A stretch of 41,906 bases of DNA from contig JAFECP010000020.1 of assembly GCA_018242105.1 (NCBI GenBank), forward strand, positions 1 to 41,906. The letters are read 5' to 3'. This document shows, one piece after another, positions 32,846 through 39,079 of the stretch. The notes below the pieces were generated by a model. It worked only from the letters and a program-made list of their open reading frames with translations. It had not been told where the DNA came from and did no database searches. The first letter of the stretch is position 1. Every line of letters begins with the position of its first letter. The position numbers and the translations under genes were made by a program. Origin of the DNA: Pseudomonadota bacterium. GTDB lineage: Bacteria; Pseudomonadota; Alphaproteobacteria; Micropepsales; Micropepsaceae.

Positions 32846-33640
32846 ATGGCCAAGCACAAAAAGCATCCCGCTTACGATGACGGTGACGACGAGGATCGCC
32901 ATTACAAGAAAACCTTGCGCGATCTTCAGATCGAGCTGGTGAAGCTCCAGCGCGAATTGATCGCGAATGGCAGCAAGATACTTCTGATCCTGGAAGGACG
33001 TGATGCCGCCGGAAAGGACGGCGCGATCAAGCGCATCATCGATCACATGAGCCCGCGCGACACGCGCGTGCATGCGCCGGGCAAGCCGTCGGATCGTGAG
33101 GAGACGCAATGGTATTTCCAGCGCTTCGTGCCATTCCTGCCATCTGGCGGGGAATTCGTGATCTTCAACCGTTCCTGGTACAATCGCTCGGGTGTGGAGC
33201 AGGTGATGGGCTTCTGCACCAAGAAGCAGCTTGAGATATTCTACAAATCCGTCGTCCCGTTCGAGGACATGCTGGTGCGCGACGGCATGGAGATCCGCAA
33301 ATATTATCTCGACATCAGCCGCGACGAGCAGAAGAAGCGGTTGGCCGAGCGCGACGAAAGCCCGCTAACGCGGTGGAAGATCTCGCCGGTCGATGCGAAA
33401 GCGCAGAAGATGTGGAGAGAATACAGCAAGGCGCGCGATGAAACCTTCGAACGCACCGACCATCCGTCCGCGCCATGGCGCATCGTGAAGACCGACGTGA
33501 AGAAGATCGCGCGGCTGGAGATCATCCGCGATTTTCTGTCCAGCTTCGACTACAAAGGCCAGAACAGGAAACTCACGCGCCCAGACCGCGATATCGTGTT
33601 CTTCTTCACGCCGGACGGCAAAAAGAGACTCGCCAGATAA
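32846..33640 (+). CDS. ppk2: Polyphosphate kinase 2
   Basis: 264 residues, a one-domain PPK2 of about the usual length. Walker A is EGRDAAGKDGAIKR (about residues 50-63), Walker B region VIFNRSWYNRSGVE, and the lid segment RWKISPVDAKAQKMW is followed by the conserved DHPSAPWRIV. It transfers phosphate between polyphosphate and nucleoside diphosphates (usually GDP or ADP). The last 49 bases including the stop recur 1,210 bp downstream beyond a methyltransferase gene, so the 3' end of this gene appears to have been duplicated by an insertion. No strong ribosome site is visible before the ATG. Confidence 0.93.
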   Translation: MAKHKKHPAYDDGDDEDRHYKKTLRDLQIELVKLQRELIANGSKILLILEGRDAAGKDGAIKRIIDHMSPRDTRVHAPGKPSDREETQWYFQRFVPFLPSGGEFVIFNRSWYNRSGVEQVMGFCTKKQLEIFYKSVVPFEDMLVRDGMEIRKYYLDISRDEQKKRLAERDESPLTRWKISPVDAKAQKMWREYSKARDETFERTDHPSAPWRIVKTDVKKIARLEIIRDFLSSFDYKGQNRKLTRPDRDIVFFFTPDGKKRLAR

Positions 33641-33642
33641 AG
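33594..33642 (+). repeat. 49-bp direct repeat, copy 1 (3' end of ppk2)
   Basis: Identical to 34804-34852. With two mismatches the match extends left to 33587 (CGCGATATC here, CGCGACGTC in copy 2). It encodes VFFFTPDGKKRLAR and the stop. Confidence 0.9.
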
Positions 33643-33657
33643 GTTGACGCGTGGACT

Positions 33658-33701
33658 ATTGTGGCACCGCAGTTGGCCCGGTGGCCGGGTTGTGCCACAA
33701 T
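33658..33701. repeat. Inverted repeat between ppk2 and the methyltransferase
   Basis: ATTGTGGCAC (33658-33667) and GTGCCACAAT (33692-33701) pair perfectly. The inner part can form a second stem (CCCGG-TGG-CCGGG). It may be a terminator for the convergent genes, though the T-run is poor, or an end structure of the inserted segment. Confidence 0.6.
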
Positions 33702-33735
33702 TTGTTGCGCTGAAATGTTGTTGCCGCCGCCGAAT

Positions 33736-34707
33736 TCATGACCGCTTTGCGACTACGGTGATGCCTGCTTCCTCGACGTGGAAGTGTTCGATTTCAAGGC
33801 CGAGTTCACCGCACCATTGTCTGACCTCATCCGGCGTCTGCCTGTGCGCATAAGCGGGTGCGAACCAGTCGAAATTGATGTGATTCATATCGGCGAATGA
33901 CAAATCGGGCCGAACGAAGGCTTTGAGGACATGCCAGTAGAAAAAACGCTGGACCGGCCATTTTCCAGCGGGAATGCCCAACGCGCGCACCGGTGCATCA
34001 AGTTCGATTTCGGCGTCGATCTTGCCGAGAGCTATTCCCAGCCGAGTGATGTCCTCCGTCGCTTCCCACGCTTTCTCTGGAGACAGATGAGAAAATTGCT
34101 CTCGTACATAATCGTCCGTGAATTCGCGGATGGCCGACTTCTTCGCGTAAACGTAGAACGCAATTTTTCCGCCGCGCCGCAGCTTCGGAACCAGCGAGGC
34201 GAGCGCCCCGCGCGTTGACGGTGTGTGATGGAGCGTTCCTTCCGCCATGATGAAATCCACCGCCTCATTCGCGATGGGCGCTTTCGTCATGTCGGCTTGA
34301 ATGAAAAGATTTTGAGATGAAGCCGCACCGATCGTTTCCGCCGCGATATCGACAGCGCGCGAGATATCAAGTCCGACATAACGAATATCGTCAAACATGC
34401 CGCTGAAATTGACCAAGGCCGCCAGGCCGCTACCGCACCCTGCATCGAGGACAATCGGGTGCTTTCCGGCAGGAAAATAGGAAGCAATCTCCCTTCCGCC
34501 GAAACGTGCGACGGTCCAGTCGTGGTGCAATTTTCGGATGGATGGATTATCTACCGAGTAAGTGTCGCGCTGGTGCCATTTGAATCCGAAGGCATCGCTT
34601 GTTTGCGCCTGTTGATTATCGACAAGAGACGCATCGCGCAGAACCCCATCTGACATCACCAAATTTCGGTCCGGCAATAGAATTTCAGAAGCCCAATCGG
34701 CGTGCAT
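33736..34707 (-). CDS. Class I SAM-dependent methyltransferase
   Basis: 323 residues. Motif I is VLDAGCGSGLAA (residues 86-97), then VGLDISRAVDIA, MAEGTLHHTPS and LRRGGKIAFYVY, the order of a methyltransferase-11/25 type Rossmann fold. An N-terminal segment with FGFKWHQRDTYS (about 40-51) resembles methyltransferases found in polysaccharide and secondary-metabolite loci, where W-x-x-x-D-T near the start is common. The substrate is unknown. The gene lies alone between the two 49-bp repeats, runs against ppk2 and is by eye less GC-rich than its neighbours, which suggests acquisition from elsewhere. Confidence 0.85.
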   Translation of the reverse strand: MHADWASEILLPDRNLVMSDGVLRDASLVDNQQAQTSDAFGFKWHQRDTYSVDNPSIRKLHHDWTVARFGGREIASYFPAGKHPIVLDAGCGSGLAALVNFSGMFDDIRYVGLDISRAVDIAAETIGAASSQNLFIQADMTKAPIANEAVDFIMAEGTLHHTPSTRGALASLVPKLRRGGKIAFYVYAKKSAIREFTDDYVREQFSHLSPEKAWEATEDITRLGIALGKIDAEIELDAPVRALGIPAGKWPVQRFFYWHVLKAFVRPDLSFADMNHINFDWFAPAYAHRQTPDEVRQWCGELGLEIEHFHVEEAGITVVAKRS

Positions 34708-34803
34708 ATCGATAACTCGCGAAGTTTGAAGAGCGGGGAATATAGACTGCTATTTGGGCCCGCACCAAGAGGAGATCGTCAAGAAACCCCTCCGCCCGCG
34801 ACG

Positions 34804-34852
34804 TCGTGTTCTTCTTCACGCCGGACGGCAAAAAGAGACTCGCCAGATAAAG
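34804..34852 (+). repeat. 49-bp direct repeat, copy 2 (displaced ppk2 3' end)
   Basis: Identical to 33594-33642. The frame RDVVFFFTPDGKKRLAR-stop is kept, preceded by unrelated sequence, so it is a gene-end fragment without a gene. A terminator hairpin that may once have served ppk2 follows at once. Confidence 0.9.
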
Positions 34853-34882
34853 AAATGGCCGGAGCCCGGACGCTCCGGCCAT
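34849..34882. terminator. Terminator of the 34901-35359 gene
   Basis: An 11-bp perfect stem (34855-34865 with 34872-34882, ATGGCCGGAGC/GCTCCGGCCAT) and a six-base loop, followed on the minus strand by TTTCTTT. It could also act for transcripts coming from ppk2. Confidence 0.8.
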
Positions 34883-34900
34883 CTTCGAGAAAGCCTGCAA

Positions 34901-35359
34901 TTAATGCGGCTGCGGCGTTGACACGTTGGTGTCCGTCGTCGTCGCTGCGTTCGGATTGGCCTTCACGCTTGTACCTGTGTTGGCTGAAGCGTTCGGTGTT
35001 GTAACGCCGGTATTTACGCTCGTGTCATCGGCTGGCGTCGCCTTGCGATGATGCTTGGATTTGCTCGATGCCGAGCCGCTGGAGCCGGTATCGGAGACCG
35101 GCGAGGCGGTGTTGGCGTTCACGCCCGCGCTGGTCGCCACGCCATTGGGTGAGGCCGAGGTGCTGATTTGTGCGTTGCCGGTGCCCGAGACGCCGGGGGC
35201 TGCAACGCCGCTGTTGACGGTAGCGTTTGCCGCCGGTGTTTTCGCGGAAAGGCCCGCGCCCAGCGAGCCGCTGCTCACCTGCGCCGTGGCCGATGTCGTG
35301 AAGGCGAGCGCGCCACAGAGCAGCGCTGTGCGAATGGTGTTGTGCATGGTCTTTGTCAT
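34901..35359 (-). CDS. Low-complexity exported protein of unknown function
   Basis: 152 residues from ATG 35359 (GAGGAA six bases upstream). A signal peptide (TIRTALLCGALAFTTSATA) is followed by a chain made almost only of Ser, Thr, Asn, Ala, Gly, Val and Pro, interrupted by one basic patch SKSKHHRKATP. There is no recognisable domain; it is probably disordered and periplasmic or surface-exposed. A GGAAC-N17-CGTT site about 55 bases upstream suggests general-stress control, and a strong terminator follows. I do not recognise the family. Confidence 0.7.
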   Translation of the reverse strand: MTKTMHNTIRTALLCGALAFTTSATAQVSSGSLGAGLSAKTPAANATVNSGVAAPGVSGTGNAQISTSASPNGVATSAGVNANTASPVSDTGSSGSASSKSKHHRKATPADDTSVNTGVTTPNASANTGTSVKANPNAATTTDTNVSTPQPH

Positions 35360-35413
35360 ATCCGTTTCCTCGGTTGTGATTTTTCGCGCACGGATACGCG
35401 CACGCATTAACTG

Positions 35414-35439
35414 AACGGAGGAACAGGCAATGCTGTTCC
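35414..35439 (-). promoter_or_regulatory. Candidate EcfG promoter for the low-complexity secreted protein
   Basis: GGAAC (35435-35439, minus strand) and CGTT (35414-35417) with a 17-base spacer, within the range accepted for alphaproteobacterial EcfG promoters. It would give a leader of about 45-50 bases. Confidence 0.5.
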
Positions 35440-35516
35440 GGCGCGTGTGGAAGGGTTCCGGGAACTTCGGCGCGATCAGGCGGCCTGCCAATCGAAGCTG
35501 CGCGTGATCCCGCGCA

Positions 35517-35703: not shown

Positions 35704-37260
35704 TTATTGGGGCCGGCCTTCGATCGAGAGCCAGCGTGTGCGGTTGAAGCCGCGGATATTGGGGATCCAGCCCTTCACCCAGGGCTGCACGATGTCCATC
35801 GTCAAAAGGAAATAGCAGGGCAGCCACGCATACTGGCTGAGCGCCAAGGCCTCGGCCTGCTCCATCAGTCTGCCACGCTCCTTCAGATCGGCGGTCTGCT
35901 GCGCCTTGTCCATCAGCGCATCGTATTGGGGATTGGAATAGCCGCCGTAATTGTTGTCTGCCGTGGTGCGCAGCAGATCGAGGAAGTTGCTGGCGTCGTT
36001 GAAATCGGCGATCCAGGCGGCGTTGGCGATGTCAAAATCGTGCTGCTGCATGCGTTGCAGATGCTGCGCGATCTCCACCGAGCTGATCGTCATGTCGATA
36101 TAGATTTGCGCGAACATCTGCTGGATCGCGGCAGCCGCGCGCCGCTGGTCCGGATTTGTGGAAGTCGCATAGACCAGATGAAAATGGTGCTGCGGGCCAT
36201 AGCCCATCGCGCGCATCAGCGCACGCGCTTTCTCGATGCGCGCGGCATAGGGCATGGCTTTGAAATCCAGCGATGCTGTGTTGGGATAGTTGGCGACGCC
36301 TGGCGGGATCATGTTGTAGGCTGGCCGCTCGCCCACGCGGCGGATTTTGTAGGCGACAGCCTCGCGGTTATAAGCGAGGGACAGCGCCTCGCGCATGCGG
36401 ATATCCTGAAAGGCCTTGCGCCGGAAATTCGCGACGATGTAATCCACGCCGAGATAGGGAACGCTCTTGATCGTGTCGGGTGCATGAGCGCGCAGCCAGC
36501 CGATCTGCGCGGCGGGGTAGGGGTTCTGCGTGTCGAGCTCGTGGCCGCGAAAGCGGATCAACGCGCCCTGCGCGTCCGGCGTGTTGAAGTAGCGCACAGT
36601 CTGAATCTTCACATGCGCGGCGTCGTAGAACAGCGGATTCTTGACGAGTGTGACGTGATCGTTAGGCACCCATTCGCCGATCTTGTAGGCGCCATTGGAA
36701 ACGTCGTTGCGCGGGCGCGACCATGCGTTGCCGTATTTCAGAACGGTATGGCGCGGAATCGGGAACGCCGTCTGGTGCATCAGCAATTCGGGCAGATAGG
36801 CGGCGGGATGCTCAAGCTGGACGACGAGCGTCTTGTCGTCGGGCGCGCTCACGCCCAGCGCCGATGGCGGCAGCGCGCCCGCACTGATCTTCTCGGCATT
36901 CTTCACCACCCACATATTGTAGGCGTAGGGCGCGGCGGTTTTCGGATCGAGCAGCCGCCGCCAGGCAAAGACGAAATCCTGCGCCGTTACCGGCACACCA
37001 TCGGACCAGCGATGGTCGCGGATGTGGAAGGTCCAGGTTTTGCCGTCCGGCGATAGCGCCCAGCTTTGTGCCGCGCCGGGAATGGGACGGCCGCGGGCAT
37101 CTTCCGTTGCCAGGCCCATCATCAGGTCGCCCATGATGTTGGATTCCCATTGGCCGTCGATGAATTGCGGATCGAGGCTTTTAATTGCCCCGCCATTGCC
37201 GCGATTGAGATAAGGACCGTCCGGTGGTGCGGGTGAACAGGCAGCGGCAAGCCCCGCCAA
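35704..37260 (-). CDS. Oligopeptide ABC transporter substrate-binding protein (OppA family), second paralogue
   Basis: 518 residues from TTG 37260, a typical SBP_bac_5 domain: GAIKSLDPQFIDGQWESNI, WSDGVPVTAQDFVFAWRRLLDP and NGAYKIGEWVPNDHVTLVKNP. The lipobox GLAAAC at the very start shows that the true signal peptide lies further upstream. In frame, only CTG at 37314 (with GGAAG seven bases before it) or the deletion of one base after an out-of-frame ATG at 37291 gives one (MRRRALAAIALAGLAAAC). It probably is a periplasmic lipoprotein feeding the permease encoded to the right. It follows its paralogue with almost no gap. Start and possible frameshift are unresolved. Confidence 0.85.
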   Translation of the reverse strand: MAGLAAACSPAPPDGPYLNRGNGGAIKSLDPQFIDGQWESNIMGDLMMGLATEDARGRPIPGAAQSWALSPDGKTWTFHIRDHRWSDGVPVTAQDFVFAWRRLLDPKTAAPYAYNMWVVKNAEKISAGALPPSALGVSAPDDKTLVVQLEHPAAYLPELLMHQTAFPIPRHTVLKYGNAWSRPRNDVSNGAYKIGEWVPNDHVTLVKNPLFYDAAHVKIQTVRYFNTPDAQGALIRFRGHELDTQNPYPAAQIGWLRAHAPDTIKSVPYLGVDYIVANFRRKAFQDIRMREALSLAYNREAVAYKIRRVGERPAYNMIPPGVANYPNTASLDFKAMPYAARIEKARALMRAMGYGPQHHFHLVYATSTNPDQRRAAAAIQQMFAQIYIDMTISSVEIAQHLQRMQQHDFDIANAAWIADFNDASNFLDLLRTTADNNYGGYSNPQYDALMDKAQQTADLKERGRLMEQAEALALSQYAWLPCYFLLTMDIVQPWVKGWIPNIRGFNRTRWLSIEGRPQ

Positions 37261-37316: not shown

Positions 37317-38963
37317 TCAGACTTCCGCGACGGCGCGGTCGAGCCGGATATAGCGCGTGCGATTGATGTTCACGTCGTTGCCGATCCAGTTGCGCACCTG
37401 CTTGGAGACGATATTGCGTGACACGCCATAATAGACGGGTGCGAACGGCGAATCGTCAAGCATGATCTGTTCTGCCTGCTCCAGGATGACGCCGCGCTGC
37501 ACCGGATCGCGCGTCACGTCGGATTGCGCGACAAGCGCATCGAATTTGGGATTGGAATAGCGGCCTATGTTCATGTCGTTCGACGATGTCTGGCCGAGGA
37601 AGAGGAAATCTTTCGCGTCATTGTAATCCGCGCTCCAGCCCGCCCACGCGGCCTGGAAATGCTGGCGGCGAAGCTGGTTGTAGTGAACCTGCGAGTCTGC
37701 AGGATGCAGGCTGACATTCGCGCCGATTCCTTTCCACATCGATTGCAGCGCGACGGCGATCAGCCGCGCATCGCTGGTGGCCTGGAAATTGTAATCGAAG
37801 GTGAGCGGATTGGCGGGCCCATAACCGGCTTCGGCCAGCAGCGCTTTTGCCTTTGCGATGCGTTGTGGCATTGCCGCGCCGGCGAAGTCGAGGCGCGGCT
37901 TGCCCGGATAGCCGGATATATGCGGCGGGACCATCGTATAAGCAGCGCGTTCGCCCGCGCACATAACGCGGCTCGCCATGATCTCGCGGTCGATGGCCAT
38001 GGAAACGGCCTGGCGCACCCGCATGTCGTTGAACGGCGGCTTGGTCAGGTTGAACTGCACATAGGAGATGGAGACATAGGGCGTGACGCGCAAGGTGCCC
38101 GGAAGATTGTCGCGCAGCCACCCGAACTCCGACGAGGGCACGCCTTCGGTGATGTCGAACTCGCCGGCGCGGAAGCGCTTCAGCGCGGCCGCATAGTCCT
38201 GCGCCGGGTAATAGTTCACCGTCTCGATATGGACGCTTTTCGCGTCGTAGAACTGCGGGTTCTTGACGACGGTGATGTGGTCGTTCGGCACCCATTCTTT
38301 CAGGACATAGGCGCCGTTGGTCGCGATGTTCTGTGGCTGCAGCCACTGATCGCCGTGTTTCTCCACCACGTGCTTGGGCACCGGCATGCAGGTGTAATGC
38401 TTCAAAAGCTCGGGCAGGTACGGCACCTGGTATTCGAACGCCATTTCGAACGTGCGATCGTCGATGGCGCGCACGCCAAGCGCCGTTACCGGCATCTTGC
38501 CGCCGTTCACGGCCTGCGCATTCTTGATCGGATAGAGCAGCGACGCATATTGCGCGGCCGTTTTCGGATCGAGGATGCGCTGGAATGAGAACACGAAATC
38601 CTGCGCCGTCACCGGCACGCCGTCGGACCATTTGTGATCGCGAATCTTGAATCTATAGACGAGGCCGTCGCCGCTTTGGCTATAGCTTTCCGCCGCGCCC
38701 AGCACGGGTTTGGCCGCGGCGTCTTCGGTCATCAGACCCAGGAACATGTCGCCGACGATATTGTTTTCCCAGCTCGTCTGGATCTTCTGCGGATCGAGTG
38801 TGTCGGGCTCCGCGCTGTTGCCGCGGTTAAATGTTCTGTCATCGAAGCTGGTGTGGCGTGTCGTGCCGCCGCCCAGCGAGAAGGCAGCTCCACCGACAAC
38901 GGCCAGGGTCGCGCCTGCGCCCATCAAAGCGCGGCGGCTCAAGCCAAGGCGGGTCTGTGCCAT
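37317..38963 (-). CDS. Oligopeptide ABC transporter substrate-binding protein (OppA family)
   Basis: 548 residues from ATG 38963, chosen for GGGAGG four bases before it; the frame extends 12 codons upstream without a better start. LSRRALMGAG followed by a hydrophobic stretch looks like a twin-arginine (Tat) or Sec signal. The mature protein has NRGNSAEPDTLDPQKIQTSW and DHKWSDGVPVTAQDFVFSF. NGAYVLKEWVPNDHITVVKNP is almost shared with the downstream paralogue, so the two genes arose by duplication. It binds peptides in the periplasm for the importer whose ATPase and permease genes lie at 39719-41906. Confidence 0.9.
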   Translation of the reverse strand: MAQTRLGLSRRALMGAGATLAVVGGAAFSLGGGTTRHTSFDDRTFNRGNSAEPDTLDPQKIQTSWENNIVGDMFLGLMTEDAAAKPVLGAAESYSQSGDGLVYRFKIRDHKWSDGVPVTAQDFVFSFQRILDPKTAAQYASLLYPIKNAQAVNGGKMPVTALGVRAIDDRTFEMAFEYQVPYLPELLKHYTCMPVPKHVVEKHGDQWLQPQNIATNGAYVLKEWVPNDHITVVKNPQFYDAKSVHIETVNYYPAQDYAAALKRFRAGEFDITEGVPSSEFGWLRDNLPGTLRVTPYVSISYVQFNLTKPPFNDMRVRQAVSMAIDREIMASRVMCAGERAAYTMVPPHISGYPGKPRLDFAGAAMPQRIAKAKALLAEAGYGPANPLTFDYNFQATSDARLIAVALQSMWKGIGANVSLHPADSQVHYNQLRRQHFQAAWAGWSADYNDAKDFLFLGQTSSNDMNIGRYSNPKFDALVAQSDVTRDPVQRGVILEQAEQIMLDDSPFAPVYYGVSRNIVSKQVRNWIGNDVNINRTRYIRLDRAVAEV

Positions 38964-39079
38964 GGTGCCTCCCTTGCGCCCCTCCGGGCGCCCTCGCATC
39001 GGACGGAGCGCTAAACTATGATTGGAACGGTCGCCCCGAACGACCCCAACGTATTTTGCCAGATGGGAGTGAACGAGTT

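Follow-up and report, generated by a model that had tools for sequence, protein, structure and literature searches.

By its sequence, a segment of foreign DNA carrying a methyltransferase gene is inserted behind ppk2, with the 3' end of ppk2 duplicated around it and the gene itself unbroken. The window, that is the whole 41,906-bp stretch of DNA that was analyzed, contains an intact ppk2 (positions 32846–33640, plus strand) encoding a polyphosphate kinase 2 of 264 amino acids (PF03976, E = 7.2e-89) with orthologs in the genus. This gene is the source of the direct repeat that brackets the segment.

Positions 33594–33642 and 34804–34852 are an exact 49-bp direct repeat with a spacing of 1210 bp, which confirms the identical copies, including the ppk2 end and its stop, described in an earlier note on this DNA. 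Extension to the left gives a repeat of 33586–33642 versus 34796–34852, both on the plus strand, with 55 of 57 positions matching, and outside these 57 bp the flanks show only chance similarity. The repeat contains the last 14–15 codons of ppk2, the TAA stop and 2 bp beyond it, where it ends, leaving ppk2 intact. The left copy is attL-like with native context to its left, and the right copy is attR-like with native context to its right, namely a terminator and the next gene. The two mismatches are adjacent, with GATATC in the left copy and GACGTC in the right; the left form is common to G034, one of the two closest relatives compared. The change of GAT ATC to GAC GTC turns D-I into D-V in the right copy and keeps the PPK2-like coding sense.

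The 49-bp repeat is the longest exact repeat of the window, the runner-up having 18 bp. With up to 3 mismatches allowed, just these two copies are found in the 3.2-Mb genome, and a reversed control gave zero matches. As for other genes flanked by the same repeat, which the earlier note had envisaged, no second site appeared in the same genome or in the genomes of the genus. Within the repeat, no core dyad of the integrase type was found beyond chance. A scan of 448 kb of this genome (about 14%, in stretches of four contigs) found no further gene-end duplication of like kind. At C78:18582-28851, many exact repeats, mostly with 819-bp spacing, lie in apparent long repetitive proteins.

The insert between the two 57-bp copies is 1153 bp long (33643–34795) and has a GC content of 54.9% versus 61.3% for the window; just 0.5% of equal-length stretches are as low. 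One large open reading frame lies between the repeats (33736–34707, minus strand), and the others are small and overlapping. No integrase was found between the repeats in the list of open reading frames or by Pfam, as all PF00589 matches of the genome lie elsewhere, and no open reading frame of the segment encodes a transposase. The earlier description of the segment as a lower-GC methyltransferase gene plus an inverted repeat, with no integrase, is upheld. The inverted repeat, TTGTGGCAC...GTGCCACAA, forms a hairpin 3' of the methyltransferase gene (33659–33700), which is possibly a weak terminator; its folding energy is no better than that of shuffled sequences (z about −0.5). It occurs at a single locus among 69 genomes of the genus, and a genus-wide element was rejected because the repeat is unique to this locus. 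When the hairpin was read by eye only, no clear RYYYAAC/GTTRRRY core-site pair, as in the attC of an integron cassette, was seen. A transposon or insertion sequence was rejected, since there is no transposase and a duplication of 49–57 bp is far above the usual length of target duplications.

The large frame encodes a full-length class I SAM-dependent methyltransferase of 323 amino acids (PF08241, E = 2e-12, along with related families), with a GC3 of 60% versus 78% for ppk2. A protein search of 36 members of the genus found no ortholog. At the class level, homologs (E<=1e-15) with 36–55% identity are present in 8 other genomes of 385, and a collection of 84,980 species yielded 58 homologous loci with full-length similarity at about 40–54% identity, spread over Hyphomicrobiales, Betaproteobacteria, Nitrospira and others. 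At the DNA level, matches to the insert are short or weak stretches inside the methyltransferase gene, none of them strong. As the best homolog is only 54% identical and the homologs are scattered among distant bacteria, the donor appears not to have been sampled. Among the homologous loci whose neighbors were scanned, L053, L055, L057 and L064 have adjoining genes for a DegT aminotransferase, an Asn-synthase-like amidotransferase, an epimerase or a formyl transferase, and judging from these genes the setting is that of surface-glycan (surface-polysaccharide) clusters. The substrate of the methyltransferase is thus probably a sugar of a surface glycan or its precursor. The nearest solved sequence is the d-glucose O-methyltransferase 6uv6 (E = 3.7e-9), which matches in the methyltransferase core alone.

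Of the relatives compared, G034 and G435 are the closest (PPK2 81–82% identical, DNA 84–85%), and both have an empty site. In each, a hairpin terminator comes directly after a single ppk2, and next to it lie the same small open reading frame, on the opposite strand, and a tRNA-Arg gene. The order ppk2 then terminator, free of the insert, is what the earlier note had proposed to look for in relatives. In the window, the hairpin terminator lies behind the right copy (34853–34884), and its counterpart in G435 stands directly behind ppk2. Once the insert is taken out, the window can be aligned with G034 and with G435 through the junction. Native sequence therefore flanks the left copy on its left and the right copy on its right, what lies between them has been added, and the 1.15-kb segment is a lineage-specific insertion. 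Counterparts of the ppk2 tail FFFTPDGKKRLAR are confined to its own clade (FFYTPD... in G034 and G435), and the remaining 28 ppk2 loci examined have unrelated tail sequences, so the duplicated end is of the lineage's own kind.

An island at the nearby tRNA-Arg gene was rejected because the relatives share the order tRNA-Arg, small open reading frame, ppk2. An Rfam search matched the tRNA alone. The small frame in the window (34901–35491, minus strand) is rich in Ser, Thr, Ala and Asn, has 196 codons from its upstream start, and has no Pfam or NCBIfam match; its position between ppk2 and tRNA-Arg is kept in G034 and G435, and an inner Met start would yield a likely signal peptide. Farther right, two adjacent minus-strand genes of similar size (35704–37260 and 37317–38999) encode a family 5 solute-binding protein that matches PF00496 and a probable second one, which looks alike by sequence.

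The arrangement suggests a possible route of entry, to which we assign a probability of about 0.45: a Campbell-type integration at the ppk2 3' end by a site-specific recombinase, which is the usual agent of such integrations. A foreign molecule of about 1.2 kb, bearing one methyltransferase gene together with the terminal ~57 bp of ppk2, would have entered the lineage. The crossover with the chromosomal ppk2 end would have taken place inside the 49-bp identical part, as these 49 bp are exact and the differences are confined to the outer left edge. The outcome would be a whole ppk2, with the displaced copy of the gene end now beyond the insert. The recombinase might be of the tyrosine type, acting from elsewhere or since lost, and the piece itself would be a small integrative element that has decayed or lacks an integrase. 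The layout is that of att sites in gene 3' ends, as the repeat continues the 3' end of ppk2 and the gene stays whole. The mechanism is unproven, and what speaks against it is that only one genome shows the structure and that no integrase, recurrence or att-bearing molecule was found. All probabilities given to mechanisms here are judgement.

The site-specific integration put forward in the earlier note therefore stands in part. The foreign insertion, the duplicated gene end and the empty sites agree with it, while site-specificity as such did not gain support, as neither a second repeat nor a contig bearing attP turned up. A narrower form, a minimal one-gene cassette that uses the ppk2 3' end as its integration site with the integrase supplied in trans, seems improbable to us. 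The cargo-only element mobilized in trans of the earlier note is likewise unproven: there is no integrase and no second repeat, and around the approximately 60 homologous methyltransferase loci no direct repeats of at least 16 bp were found within 3 kb.

A mobile source was sought in several directions. No phage, plasmid or viral contig bearing the att sequence of the repeat was found in the collections searched. A phage origin was rejected as searches of phages matched neither the protein nor the DNA, and a plasmid origin because plasmid homologs of the protein are at most 46% identical and no plasmid DNA matches. The tail pattern has six matches in IMG/VR, which fall within an unrelated protein of a phage contig and were set aside. 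The IMG/VR contig L110, with a 54% homolog, was also discarded as a link to mobility, since its two scanned neighbors have no Pfam match. Behind ppk2 in the relatives, no integrase was found as far as a crude motif test on open reading frames lying within 1.5 kb can tell, in which a very loose motif flagged five frames. By our reading of the sequences, the host has at least one phage-type integrase, on contig C27 (C27:13258-14523), a short recombinase on C6, and XerC-like and XerD-like proteins. Near the resident integrases, no trace of the repeat core exceeds 13 bp. Some 7 kb past the right end of the window, a tyrosine recombinase fragment (C12:48779-48907) covers the C-terminal 42 positions of PF00589 in a 102-aa frame; it is apparently a decayed integrase among small unassigned open reading frames. 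As an agent this fragment, 14 kb off, was rejected, since no link to the repeat was found. A literature search gave no report of ppk2 as an integration site.

The absence of an integrase and of any recurrence would also fit a one-off illegitimate insertion, which we hold to be a serious possibility. A staggered break at the ppk2 end, with nicks about 57 nt apart, would be filled in, and end joining or template switching would capture a foreign fragment. The fill-in would yield the 57-bp duplication, and neither an integrase nor a mobile element is needed. Such capture deserves consideration because the host genome encodes Ku, a protein of end joining. The two mismatches lie 7–8 bp from the junction of the right copy, where an error-prone fill-in would end. 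Illegitimate recombination has also been held responsible for much of the small-scale diversity of bacterial genomes (PMC2884548). What speaks against such capture is that it would make the end of the 57-bp duplication, 2 bp past the stop codon, a coincidence. Moreover, end joining does not usually leave long fill-in duplications.

A remnant of a tandem ppk2 pair, in which the second gene was replaced by foreign DNA save for its last 57 bp, is rather unlikely. With its two mismatches the right copy remains PPK2-like in coding sense, which would fit a formerly coding sequence. However, no relative in the genus has two ppk2 genes here, the sequences to the left of the 57 bp are alike only by chance (p about 0.1 to 0.3), and 49 identical bp beside nothing alike would demand a sharp cut. 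A collapsed pair of ppk2 paralogs, offered in the earlier note as the alternative, finds no support for the same reasons: ppk2 is single in the relatives and the homology stops at 57 bp.

An assembly artifact, the wrong joining of two real sequences with the 49-bp stretch in common, is very unlikely: the genome is a draft in 78 contigs, in which runs of N mark scaffold gaps, and one 23-bp exact repeat lies directly at an N gap (C12:122090-122113), but the region is free of N, either path needs the repeat to be real in some molecule, and the outer flanks are the native neighbors seen in the relatives, which puts both junctions at the right locus. The 23-bp repeat itself (C12:122090-122112 and 122415) has its first copy ending directly at a 2-base N gap and looks like a scaffolding scar.

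As it stands, the locus is a clean case of a single, probably glycan-modifying gene entering a chromosome with no harm to its neighbor. If the trans-mobilized cassette were true, the segment would count as a cargo-only integrative element of very small size, and ppk2 would be put forward as a site of integration.

The methyltransferase belongs to the same family as the class I SAM-dependent methyltransferases of surface-polysaccharide clusters and resembles them over its full length, whereas the gene here stands alone, with no adjoining glycan gene. With integrative elements in the 3' ends of protein-coding genes, which restore the gene end, the locus shares the duplicated end, the intact gene and the identical core; unlike them, it has no integrase and no attP-bearing relative. 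A close parallel in organization is the microcin H47 island of E. coli, which has no integrase of its own, lies between direct repeats and recombines through functions that are encoded elsewhere (PMC3191183). Both have integrase-free cargo between attL/attR-like direct repeats (PMC3191183). The microcin H47 island is 13 kb long with longer, imperfect repeats, and its excision has been shown by experiment, whereas the segment behind ppk2 is 1.2 kb long, carries one gene and is known from sequence.
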